A program made the position numbers and the translations under genes. DNA of 64,000 nucleotides from Leptospiraceae bacterium (GTDB taxonomy: Bacteria; Spirochaetota; Leptospiria; Leptospirales; Leptonemataceae). This document shows positions 53,497-58,402 of the stretch, piece after piece. The DNA is taken from positions 62,001-126,000 of the forward strand of contig JAOACE010000022.1 in assembly GCA_026418015.1 (NCBI GenBank), written 5' to 3'. The notes under the pieces are model-generated. The model was not told where the DNA came from and did not search any database. It worked only from the letters and a program-made list of their open reading frames with translations. Every line of letters begins with the position of its first letter. Positions within the stretch are counted from its first letter, which is position 1.

Positions 53497-54021
53497 ATGA
53501 AGGGAACATTTTTAATAGCTTTTTTTGAAACTTTAAAACAAAAGGTAGGACAAGAAAAATTTCAAGAAATATTAAATCATGCAGGTTATAAAGAAGAACC
53601 CATTATTTTTGCTATAAGCGATGTCGACGATGAAATATTTTTTAAAATCTTACATTCTACCAGCAAAGTATTAGATATTCCTTTACACCAAATTACCGAA
53701 GCTTTTTCGGATTATTGGATTCATGAATATACACAAAAAGTTTACAAAAAGGTCTATCAATTATACGATTCTTTAAAAGATTTCTTATTAGACCTAAACT
53801 GGGTCCACGAAATGACTACAAAAAATCTACTACATCCAACACCTCCCAAGTTCGAATATCAATGGGAAAACGATCATACCCTTTTAATTACTTATAAATC
53901 CAAACGAAATCTCATCGATATGGTGATGAGTCATATAAAAGCTGCTGCCAAACATTATAACGAAAAAATCAACCTACAAAAAATTCAAGATAACGTGATC
54001 CGTGTGGAATTTTTAAAATAA
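53497..54021 (+). CDS. H-NOX heme nitric-oxide-sensing protein
   Basis: A 174-aa stand-alone H-NOX. The proximal heme ligand is H104 (in NWVHEMTTKN) and the heme-propionate motif YxSxR is intact (YKSKR, Y133/S135/R137). Relative to the oxygen-binding Thermoanaerobacter H-NOX, whose distal Tyr lies five residues after this Arg, residue 142 here is Met, so it should favour NO over oxygen; this alignment is from memory. H-NOX normally sits beside a kinase or cyclase it controls. No such gene adjoins this one. A pseudogene follows and a copper-oxidase operon lies 1 kb downstream. Confidence 0.88.
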   Translation: MKGTFLIAFFETLKQKVGQEKFQEILNHAGYKEEPIIFAISDVDDEIFFKILHSTSKVLDIPLHQITEAFSDYWIHEYTQKVYKKVYQLYDSLKDFLLDLNWVHEMTTKNLLHPTPPKFEYQWENDHTLLITYKSKRNLIDMVMSHIKAAAKHYNEKINLQKIQDNVIRVEFLK

Positions 54022-55026: not shown

Positions 55027-55054
55027 TTGACATATTTGTCTAATTTTTTAGAAT
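55027..55054 (+). promoter_or_regulatory. promoter of the copper operon
   Basis: TTGACA (55027-55032), a 16-bp spacer and TAGAAT (55049-55054). The AGAGGGGG ribosome-binding site follows at about 55061, ahead of the ATG at 55074. No copper-regulator palindrome was recognised nearby. Confidence 0.6.
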
Positions 55055-55073: not shown

Positions 55074-56996
55074 ATGCGAAATTATTTTATAGTTTTTTTG
55101 TGTCTTTTAGCTTATTGTGGTAATCCCGAAGAAGGTGGATATGTTCACGTTTCTATGATGGACAACTTTTTTTCTCCACCGCTTTCGAGAATTCCCAAAG
55201 GAGGAACGATTGAATTTATCAACAAAGGTTTAAACCCACACAATGCCATTGCGGTGGATAAATCTTGGTCCACAGAAAAAACCTTCGGTAAATTAGAAAT
55301 GCTCTCTGGCGACAAAACAAGGGTTACTTACCCAGAAGAAGGTGTATTTCCTTATTATTGTTCTTTCCATGCAACACCCGATGGTAAGGTAGGAATGGTC
55401 GGTACCGTCGTTGTAGGAAATGTAGATTACATTCCCGAAAAATCGGGTAAAACCTTCAAAGCAGTAGAAAAATGGTCTGGCAAGACACTCAAAGTACCAC
55501 AGGATTATCCTACGATTCAAACTGCTGTGGATGCTTCCAACCCAGGAGACCTAATCTTAATCGACGAAGGTATCTATAAAGAAGAAGTAGTTATAACAAC
55601 ACCGTCGTTAATTCTTCGTGGAACCAACCGAAACAAAGTCATCATCGATGGAGAATTTGTTCGAGGCAATGGAATCATGATTGTAGGTGCAGATGGTGTT
55701 GCAGTAGAAAACCTTACTGTGCGAAATACAATCTTGAATGGAGTCTTCTGGACAGGTGTTAAAGGATATCGCGCTTCGTATGTAACAACCCACAACACAG
55801 GCGATTATGGAATCTATGCCTTTGATTCTACCGATGGTATATTTGAACATTCTTATGCTTCTGGTTCTCCGGATTCCTCTTTTTATATTGGACAATGTTA
55901 TCCTTGTAAAGCGATTTTATACAACAACATAGGAGAAAATAGTGCACTTGGCTATTCGGGAACTAACTCTGGTGGCGATCTATACATCATTTACAACATT
56001 TTTAAAAACAATTTTGTGGGCATTTTACCCAATACATTGGATAGTGAACTTCTACCACCTGGACGAGAAACAACAATGTGGGGAAATATCATTATAAACA
56101 ATAACAATATCGATGCACCAGTAAAACCTCTTACTTGGCCATCTTTTGGAAATGGTATTTTAGTTGCTGGCGCGATAAAAAATCGTATCGAAAAAAATTT
56201 GATTATCAACCATCCCAACCATGGTATTTTGATAATCCCGAACCTACAAGAAAATTTCTGGCTTTCTTATAAAAACATTGTAAAAGATAACATTATCGTC
56301 AATTCTGGTCGTGCAGATATTTCTGTTGTGGGACCTGTTAGCTACGGAAATTGTTTCGAAAAAAATCAATTTAAAACATCTCTTCCTTTTGGGCTACAAA
56401 TATGGAATCATTGTAAAAATCCCTTACGATATGTATTAGGTGGCGATCTCTCTATGATGATGGGTGGTATGGCAATGATGATAGAAGCAAAATTGAACCT
56501 CTTTCGCGCTGGTGATTGGAAAAAGCAACCACAACCTCCCGAACAACCAGAAATGCCCCAACAATTAAAAAATAGAATTGAACCAGCCATCAACGTTTTC
56601 GAAAAAAACAAACATCTTCTAAAAGAAATCAACTTTCATCCCGATGCAGAGAAATACTATAAAGAATACATTAAATCCCATCCGAATTATTTAGGTTCCA
56701 TTCAACCCGTAATACCTGTATCGCCTCTAACGTTTTTATTCCAGTATTTTGGTTTTATTCTGCCGTTTAGTTTATATGCCTGCTGGACTCTTTTAGCTTT
56801 GTATGATCTACAACATTCCCAACAAAACAAAATTTTATGGAGCTGGATTTTAATCTTACTACCCTTTCTTGGCAGTTTAATCTATTTATGGGGATTTCGA
56901 CAAAACATTCCTAAATGGTTAACACTTACTACAACCATTACAGGTATTGCCATCTATTTCGTATTGTTAATTTTTAGTATTACGATTATTTTTTAA
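55074..56996 (+). CDS. cupredoxin / parallel-beta-helix / two-helix membrane fusion protein
   Basis: The 640-aa product has an N-terminal secretion signal ending LLAYC (possible lipobox, Tyr at -1 is unusual). Residues about 22-115 form a blue-copper cupredoxin with ligands H56 (NPHN), C96 and H99 (YYCSFHATPDGK) and M108. From about 145 to 440 a right-handed parallel beta helix follows (PQDYPTIQTAVDASNPGDL, IGENSALGYSGTNSGGD, FEKNQF), of the type in NosD and pectin-lyase-like proteins. After a Pro-rich linker, two transmembrane helices near the C-terminus resemble the PLDc_N membrane module (SLYACWTLLALYDLQH, WILILLPFLGSLIYLWG). It is thus an outer-leaflet or periplasmic copper protein tied to the membrane. 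First gene of a three-gene operon. Confidence 0.78.
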   Translation: MRNYFIVFLCLLAYCGNPEEGGYVHVSMMDNFFSPPLSRIPKGGTIEFINKGLNPHNAIAVDKSWSTEKTFGKLEMLSGDKTRVTYPEEGVFPYYCSFHATPDGKVGMVGTVVVGNVDYIPEKSGKTFKAVEKWSGKTLKVPQDYPTIQTAVDASNPGDLILIDEGIYKEEVVITTPSLILRGTNRNKVIIDGEFVRGNGIMIVGADGVAVENLTVRNTILNGVFWTGVKGYRASYVTTHNTGDYGIYAFDSTDGIFEHSYASGSPDSSFYIGQCYPCKAILYNNIGENSALGYSGTNSGGDLYIIYNIFKNNFVGILPNTLDSELLPPGRETTMWGNIIINNNNIDAPVKPLTWPSFGNGILVAGAIKNRIEKNLIINHPNHGILIIPNLQENFWLSYKNIVKDNIIVNSGRADISVVGPVSYGNCFEKNQFKTSLPFGLQIWNHCKNPLRYVLGGDLSMMMGGMAMMIEAKLNLFRAGDWKKQPQPPEQPEMPQQLKNRIEPAINVFEKNKHLLKEINFHPDAEKYYKEYIKSHPNYLGSIQPVIPVSPLTFLFQYFGFILPFSLYACWTLLALYDLQHSQQNKILWSWILILLPFLGSLIYLWGFRQNIPKWLTLTTTITGIAIYFVLLIFSITIIF

Positions 56997-57009
56997 AAGG
57001 AGCATAACC

Positions 57010-57312
57010 ATGAACGTAGAAACACCTTCCCTATTGGATTTAATCCTCAACTTTTATGGATATTATGTGCCATTTATATTGCTTGCAATATGGGCACCTA
57101 TGGCATTAATCGATTTGGCAAAAAGAAAAATAGAACCCAATAAGGGTATTCTTTGGAGCATTGCAATTGTAGGCTTACCCTTGATTGGAGCTGGTATTTA
57201 TCACCTCTTTGGCAAAAGTGAGTTACCTAAGTGGTTTAACTATGTTTTTGTTTATGGTGGAATTGCGATTCTTGTAATTATGATCCTACTTTCTTCTGTA
57301 TTAAAGTATTAA
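57010..57312 (+). CDS. small membrane protein, PLDc_N-like
   Basis: A 100-aa protein with three hydrophobic stretches (about residues 14-34, 46-64 and 76-96). The first pair carries the PLDc_N pattern, ILLAIWAPMALIDLAKRK, then LWSIAIVGLPLIGAGIYHLF, similar to the two-helix end of the upstream 640-aa protein. It lacks a phospholipase D domain. It is between the cupredoxin fusion (13 bp upstream) and the multicopper oxidase (1 bp downstream), so it is probably part of the same membrane complex. AAGGAG precedes the ATG. Confidence 0.68.
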   Translation: MNVETPSLLDLILNFYGYYVPFILLAIWAPMALIDLAKRKIEPNKGILWSIAIVGLPLIGAGIYHLFGKSELPKWFNYVFVYGGIAILVIMILLSSVLKY

Positions 57313-57313
57313 A

Positions 57314-58402
57314 ATGATTAACCGAAAGAATTTTTTTAAATTCATCTTAGGAGGATTAGGGCTGATTTCTCTATCTTCCCTTTTTTCTTTTTTTAAAAGA
57401 AACAGCTATTCTTCTAATGTTGTTTGTAATAATGAGCTTCCACCGAATCAAACAAATCAAGGTTATCTTTTTCCCTCTTTTGGAAACGATAACGTAGGAG
57501 CTGGCCCAGGTTTAATTACCCATTCTCCCTACGGAAGCATGGTACATCCACCAGCTGGTTTAACTAGAACTACTCTTTCGCGTTTCGAAAATCCCTTTTC
57601 TATACCAAGAGAAGTAAACACGCAGTATTTACCTTCTTTTTCGGTTCTTCCATCGATCAAAACTTACGAAATCCATTCCATAGAACGTCCAATAAACGTT
57701 GCCCATAAGACCATTTTTTATGCTTGGACATTTAATGGAATGCTACCTGGTCCAATCATTCGCGCGCGATTAGGAGAAAAAATTCGAATCAAATTCAAAA
57801 ACATGTCGAAAGATCCTCATTCGATTCATTTTCATGGTAGTCATAGCGTAAGTATGGACGGATGGGAACCTATACCCCCCGGAAAAGAAACAGAATACAT
57901 TATAGAAGCAAAGCCCATCGGTGTTCATCCCTATCATTGCCATGTTCCGCCAATTGCAGTGCATTTATCAAAAGGCCTTTTCGGTACAATGATTGTTGAT
58001 CCACCAGAAGGTCGTCCCCCAGCACACGAAGTTGTTTTAATCTTACACGGATATGATTTAAATGGCAGAGGCAAAAACGATATCTACTGCTGGAATGGTA
58101 TCGCCGGATATTACGAGCGATTCCCTATTCGCGTAAAAGTTGGCGAATTAGTTCGCGTTTATTTGATCAACATGTTAGAATATGATCCTATTGCATCCTT
58201 TCATCTACATGCACAAACCTTTGATGTTTATAGAACAGGATCAAAATTAACGCCGGATGAACATACCGATGTTGTAACATTAGGTCAAACAGAACGTTGC
58301 ATCATCGAATTTCGTCTACCAGAAAAGGGGCGTTATATGTTCCATCCCCATCAGACCTACATGGCAGAACGCGGTGCGATGGGATGGTTTGTTGCAATAT
58401 AG
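57314..58402 (+). CDS. two-domain multicopper oxidase, type-1 copper in domain 1
   Basis: A 362-aa protein with an N-terminal export signal that contains RK rather than RR (NRKNFFKFILGG), so Tat export is possible but not typical. Domain 1 has the copper His of PHSIHFHG (H169, H172, H174) and HCH (H208, C209, H210), H217 and, where type-1 copper has a Met, Leu222 (HLSKGLFG). Domain 2 has FHLHAQTF (H297, H299) and HPHQTYM (H344, H346), where the type-1 Cys is replaced by Pro. This arrangement fits two-domain laccase-like oxidases with type-1 copper only in domain 1 and a shared trinuclear centre. It may oxidise metal, phenol or nitrogen compounds; the substrate is unknown. Confidence 0.85.
   Translation: MINRKNFFKFILGGLGLISLSSLFSFFKRNSYSSNVVCNNELPPNQTNQGYLFPSFGNDNVGAGPGLITHSPYGSMVHPPAGLTRTTLSRFENPFSIPREVNTQYLPSFSVLPSIKTYEIHSIERPINVAHKTIFYAWTFNGMLPGPIIRARLGEKIRIKFKNMSKDPHSIHFHGSHSVSMDGWEPIPPGKETEYIIEAKPIGVHPYHCHVPPIAVHLSKGLFGTMIVDPPEGRPPAHEVVLILHGYDLNGRGKNDIYCWNGIAGYYERFPIRVKVGELVRVYLINMLEYDPIASFHLHAQTFDVYRTGSKLTPDEHTDVVTLGQTERCIIEFRLPEKGRYMFHPHQTYMAERGAMGWFVAI

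Follow-up and report, generated by a model that had tools for sequence, protein, structure and literature searches.

A conserved cupredoxin-beta-helix protein and small membrane protein adjoin a predicted type C multicopper oxidase in Leptospirales

Three genes on the plus strand, at positions 55074-58402 of a 64,000-nucleotide stretch of DNA from a Leptospiraceae bacterium (the window), encode a cupredoxin-beta-helix protein (ORF1), a small membrane protein (ORF2) and a multicopper oxidase (ORF3). The locus raises the question of what the first two proteins do beside the third. A preliminary description, made from the sequence alone, had seen in them a copper operon in which ORF1 would act at the cell surface and feed the oxidase. 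The gene coordinates agree with its account of three tightly spaced genes, with gaps of 13 bp between ORF1 and ORF2 and 1 bp between ORF2 and ORF3. The gene 3' of ORF3 lies on the opposite strand with its end only 2 bp away, so we place the end of the operon at ORF3. The locus has the following features.

55027..55054, plus strand: promoter TTGACA-16-TAGAAT, with 11/12 consensus matches; its -35 box and TGTCTAA are kept in the congener G013
55027-55043, over the -35 box: imperfect dyad GACA-N4-TGTC, common to G013
55074..56996, plus strand: ORF1, a 640-aa lipoprotein with a cupredoxin, a beta helix and a C-terminal three-helix membrane module (ORF, Pfam, orthologues)
55116..55118, plus strand: lipobox cysteine C15 of ORF1 (LAYC-G); C15 and G16 are invariant in the ORF1 alignment
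55137..55418, plus strand: plastocyanin-like type-1 copper domain of ORF1, about residues 22-115 (PF00127 above cut-off)
55494..56423, plus strand: right-handed beta helix of ORF1, about residues 141-450 (PF13229 and PF05048 above cut-off)
55896..55907, plus strand: CxxC pair C275-C278 in a GQCxPC motif of the beta helix, invariant in the alignments
56715..56993, plus strand: C-terminal membrane module of ORF1, residues 548-640 (homology to ORF2; modelled helices)
57010..57312, plus strand: ORF2, a PLDc_N-like three-helix membrane protein of 100 aa (PF13396 above cut-off; conserved beside ORF1)
57314..58402, plus strand: ORF3, a predicted type C two-domain multicopper oxidase of 362 aa with a Tat-like N-terminus, RK variant (Pfam, PDB, fold search, ligands)

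The earlier claim of one strong promoter was borne out by the near-consensus site upstream of ORF1, which was the top-scoring of 22 promoter-like sites in the 5.2 kb scanned. Since this total does not rise above the shuffle expectation of 20.5, the promoter is supported by its score, its position and its partial conservation in G013, and not by the site count. The dyad over the -35 box is a possible repressor operator. Compared with G013, dN/dS was about 0.07 for ORF1, 0.06 for ORF2 and 0.09 for ORF3, with dS saturated; we take these ratios, together with the linkage across genomes, as signs that the genes are no product of chance. An H-NOX-like haem-NO-binding gene lies just upstream of the operon (53497-54021; PF07700, E 1e-32); we ruled it out as an operon partner because it does not adjoin the operon in G013. 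Two scans of viral contigs found no viral relatives of the operon.

ORF1 joins a type-1 copper domain, a NosD-like beta helix and a membrane module in one chain, as first described, except that the helices of the module number three and not two. Orthologues in eight genomes were 50-83% identical to it. The Copper-bind match (PF00127) spans residues 33-114 above the Pfam cut-off, and the domain carries H56, C96, H99 and M108, the full His-Cys-His-Met type-1 set that is typical of electron carriers. These four residues were invariant when the Leptospirales ORF1 proteins were aligned with one protein from the SAR11 order, and were found by pattern in 18/18 SAR11-order ORF1 proteins, so the set is invariant across two phyla. 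The loop from H99 to M108 is longer than that of plastocyanin, and ORF1 scored 33 bits against the plastocyanin equivalog TIGR02656, under the curated 87.85. The beta helix matched TIGR03805 over 250 positions (E 2e-21) at 76.3 bits, below the curated 141.5 for membership, and ORF1 reached 39.5 bits against the 300 required for the NosD family TIGR04247. C275 and C278 followed the same pattern as the copper ligands, being invariant in the Leptospirales proteins and the one aligned SAR11-order protein and present by pattern in 18/18 SAR11-order proteins.

The tail of ORF1 gave a weak PLDc_N match at residues 571-605 (21 bits, under the 23.3 cut-off). Three hydrophobic helices (551-581, 586-607 and 614-639) appear there in a low-confidence model that agrees with the sequence. 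The structure predictions for the operon were made from 6-8 sequences and were both of low confidence (pLDDT 51 and 47, the latter for ORF1). ORF2 repeats this module alone, in line with the preliminary description: it is homologous to ORF1 residues 548-636 at 35% identity (E 1e-9), and its residues 31-68 match PF13396 (PLDc_N) at 26.2 bits, above the gathering threshold of 23.3. In a small tree of membrane modules, the Leptospirales ORF2 sequences and ORF1 tails grouped apart, with sequences too short for firm conclusions.

The assignment of ORF3 as a multicopper oxidase held, and we could refine its class. The protein carries Cu-oxidase_3 and Cu-oxidase_2 domains in Pfam and matches PDB 3gdc in sequence (E 1e-74); a fold search for it ranked 3gdc and 7rab first, which does no more than agree with the sequence matches. 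Type-1 ligands H169, C209 and H217 lie in domain 1 and are invariant, and in domain 2 an HPH motif (H345) occupies the position where the cysteine would stand. Four HxH motifs (HFH 172-174, HCH 208-210, HLH 297-299 and HPH 344-346) were invariant in eight proteins. Type C oxidases are defined by two cupredoxin domains of which just the N-terminal one carries type-1 copper ligands (PMC13151041), and because ORF3 shows both properties we predict it to be one of them. Its axial position is Leu222, with Leu in most relatives and Met in G019. The N-terminus reads NRKNFFKF here and NRKDFLKW in relatives, which is close to a Tat motif with RK for RR and makes the protein a candidate for Tat export. 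An identity as NirK, which has an isolated type-2 copper where these oxidases have a trinuclear cluster, was ruled out by the trinuclear HxH set and by a TIGR02376 score of 86 bits, where the cut-off is 296.

Comparison with solved structures placed ORF3 among known enzymes. According to the 3gdc alignment, it has the four HxH motifs and the domain-1 type-1 site of the type C oxidases 3gdc, 7rab (M. hydrothermalis) and 3g5w (the Nitrosomonas europaea blue copper oxidase), but differs from them in a long N-terminal extension with the Tat-like motif and in sharing an operon with a cupredoxin-beta-helix protein. In Nitrosopumilus maritimus 9cck a two-domain oxidase core is likewise accompanied by an additional cupredoxin, but as a C-terminal fusion to the oxidase, whereas the cupredoxin of ORF1 shares its chain with a beta helix and membrane helices.

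We next consider how the genes are distributed. Full ORF1 was found in 9/30 genomes of the order Leptospirales and an ORF3 orthologue in the same nine, while 21/30 lacked both. If the genomes were independent, the probability of this coincidence would be 1/C(30,9), about 7e-8, a figure that kinship makes overstated. The carriers, mostly metagenome-assembled genomes labelled Leptospiraceae or 'Spirochaetaceae', span two families and four genera with differing gene neighbourhoods. Gene order and strand were identical among them where contigs allow; ORF1 is split across contigs in G020, and in G025 it ends one contig while ORF2 starts at the end of another, so that adjacency there is inferred. 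The preliminary description had named unlinked homologues or variable ligands as signs of a chance neighbourhood; neither was seen, for every genome of the order with these genes has them linked, and the copper ligands do not vary. ORF1 and ORF3 pairwise distances correlate with r 0.986, a value that shared ancestry alone would give.

The operon is missing from 2/4 genomes of the window's genus. When we compared the empty sites of the operon-less congeners G012 and G014, the flanking LURP-one-related gene was also absent. A gene that the preliminary description had missed, SCO1/SenC, follows the oxidase as the fourth gene in 7/9 carriers (G011, G016-G020 and G025), whereas no SCO1 gene adjoins the operon in the window or elsewhere in its genus. 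Only one other genome among those sampled from the phylum gave a strong oxidase match: G332, of another family, where the related oxidase scores 301 bits and ORF1 is missing. Separately, we noted a second oxidase or NirK-like class in the order (L041-L045 and L050-L053; frames of 464-494 aa, about 28% identity to ORF3); in many genomes a SCO1 gene is located some 2 kb away from it.

Outside the phylum, the pair formed by ORF1 and ORF2 was found in the SAR11 order. Locus L080, from a genome labelled Pelagibacteraceae, encodes ORF1 at 51% identity, 535 aa long and without the membrane tail, with a 106-aa ORF2 directly after it. Full-length ORF1 matches were present in 42/297 SAR11-order genomes, and ORF2 directly followed a tail-less ORF1 in 18/18 loci that we fetched, just as the two adjoin in Leptospirales. 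The SAR11-order ORF1 scored 72.7 bits against TIGR03805, under the 141.5 cut-off. Besides this label, the assignment to the order is based on consistent gene neighbourhoods in many genomes, which argue against a binning error. An SH3-NlpC/P60 gene comes next after the pair in the SAR11-order loci (L105 and L107-L124).

No oxidase was found near the pair in the 18 fetched SAR11-order loci, and 41/42 of the pair-bearing genomes had no match to the oxidase profile; the single exception was a distant three-domain oxidase. For this reason feeding the oxidase cannot be the core function of the pair, contrary to what had been proposed for the cupredoxin-beta-helix protein. The pair looks like the core, and the oxidase like an addition made in Leptospirales. 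Because the tail is fused to ORF1 in Leptospirales and ORF2 is a separate chain in the SAR11 order, the pattern also suggests that ORF1 and ORF2 are physical partners.

Beyond these groups the matches covered the beta helix alone. Apart from the SAR11-order genome on which the search was centred, 398 genomes of Pseudomonadota gave matches to the beta helix only and no cupredoxin-beta-helix fusion. Plasmid proteins of haloarchaea (43-45% identity) and Streptomyces (24-36%) align to the beta helix and have no cupredoxin. The GQCxPC motif is kept in the Streptomyces clavuligerus protein and missing in the haloarchaeal ones; among the TIGR03805-type relatives compared from other Proteobacteria, GQS stands in its place. 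The stand-alone beta-helix relatives on plasmids of haloarchaea and S. clavuligerus, at 36-45% identity, lie at L085:7899-9104, L086:7950-8831 and L087:5776-7218. Family libraries and the open-access literature yielded no named family for, or description of, the ORF1/ORF2 pair, and no named system with this gene set, as the preliminary description had supposed. No paper on a system of beta helix, cupredoxin and oxidase was found in the open-access literature, an absence that carries little weight. The component folds are known; the combination and the conserved pair are apparently undescribed.

What, then, might the pair do? We tentatively favour, at slightly less than even probability, an inner-membrane-anchored, periplasm-facing blue-copper electron-transfer module that is joined in Leptospirales to the type C oxidase and usually to SCO1. 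ORF1 would be anchored to the periplasmic side of the inner membrane through a lipid at its N-terminus and a helix bundle at its C-terminus; the lipobox and this bundle are the grounds for that location, and they make the cell surface proposed earlier doubtful. Its plastocyanin-like domain would carry single electrons, and the beta helix, as a rigid scaffold or a platform for binding, could position this domain against a partner. ORF2 would be the membrane partner of ORF1, supplying the anchor as a separate chain in the SAR11 order. In Leptospirales, where the module is joined to the presumably exported ORF3, electrons would pass between the cupredoxin and the oxidase and end on O2, and a SCO1-type copper chaperone may help to load the enzyme. 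The electron donor and acceptor, the substrate and the direction of transfer are likewise what we infer. Several points speak against this electron-transfer module: the window's own genus has no SCO1 gene next to the operon, the H99-M108 loop exceeds that of plastocyanin in length, the structure models are of low confidence, and the cupredoxin of ORF1 could instead bind copper for delivery.

A somewhat doubtful variant is a membrane-tethered blue-copper redox system of two components, ORF1 and ORF2, that the SAR11 order and Leptospirales have in common; its beta helix would bind a periplasmic substrate or partner of its own, and one lineage only would have plugged in a terminal oxidase.

Copper delivery, which we consider rather unlikely, would make ORF1 a maturation factor with a NosD-like scaffold, a copper-binding cupredoxin and a CxxC pair; together with SCO1 it would load the oxidase in Leptospirales and some other cuproenzyme in the SAR11 order. 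The NosD relationship of the beta helix (PF05048 above cut-off), the SCO1 gene in the operon of 7/9 carriers and the invariant CxxC are consistent with this. The full type-1 ligand set of ORF1 is not, as such sets usually mean electron transfer and not copper release. NosD, the maturation factor of nitrous oxide reductase, is likewise a periplasmic beta-helix protein, but ORF1 is fused to a cupredoxin and membrane helices and falls far under the TIGR04247 cut-off. Moreover, NosD functions with the NosFY ABC transporter (PMC7558416), and no ABC transporter, NosFY or NosZ gene was listed among the neighbours of the window operon and the related loci examined. There is a precedent in the R. capsulatus cutFOG operon, which combines an oxidase with putative copper-binding proteins, including a maturation factor; CutF is a small CxxxC protein, CutG is CopG-like and CutO is CueO-like, and none of them equals ORF1 or ORF2 (PMC8456105).

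It is unlikely that the pair serves the envelope, with the beta helix binding a polymer such as a glycan and the cupredoxin giving or taking electrons for its modification. Beta-helix folds that act on polysaccharides are numerous, and in the SAR11 order the NlpC/P60 gene is next to the pair, although it lies outside the Leptospirales operon. The fold search with the ORF1 model gave weak matches to polysaccharide-active beta-helix enzymes, with E no better than 1e-3; given the low confidence of the model we did not count them as evidence. No lyase or epimerase catalytic residues were identified in the ORF1 beta helix.

More improbable still is a copper-tolerance unit in which ORF3 is a cuprous oxidase and ORF1 a periplasmic copper sink. 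Known multicopper oxidases such as CueO and CutO have such roles (PMC8456105), and the possible operator over the -35 box would fit, but the SAR11-order genomes keep the pair without the oxidase, and no copper-export ATPase or regulator gene was seen beside the operon among its neighbours in the window. Finally, the parts do occur alone (the G332 oxidase, the SAR11-order pair), yet the operon is no chance neighbourhood of unrelated copper genes, a reading of negligible probability that is contradicted by the linkage in nine genomes, with one gene order in all genomes of the order that have either part, across two families, four genera and differing neighbourhoods.

Returning to the electron-transfer module, the finding would provide a candidate redox partner for the type C two-domain oxidases, which have been little studied. 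We found no described example, in family libraries or the open-access literature, of a beta helix joined to an electron-transfer copper domain, and the fused and separate forms of ORF1 and ORF2 offer a direct test of their interaction. SAR11 bacteria have small genomes and rank among the ocean's most abundant bacteria, and a copper protein pair conserved in part of their order merits a functional assignment.
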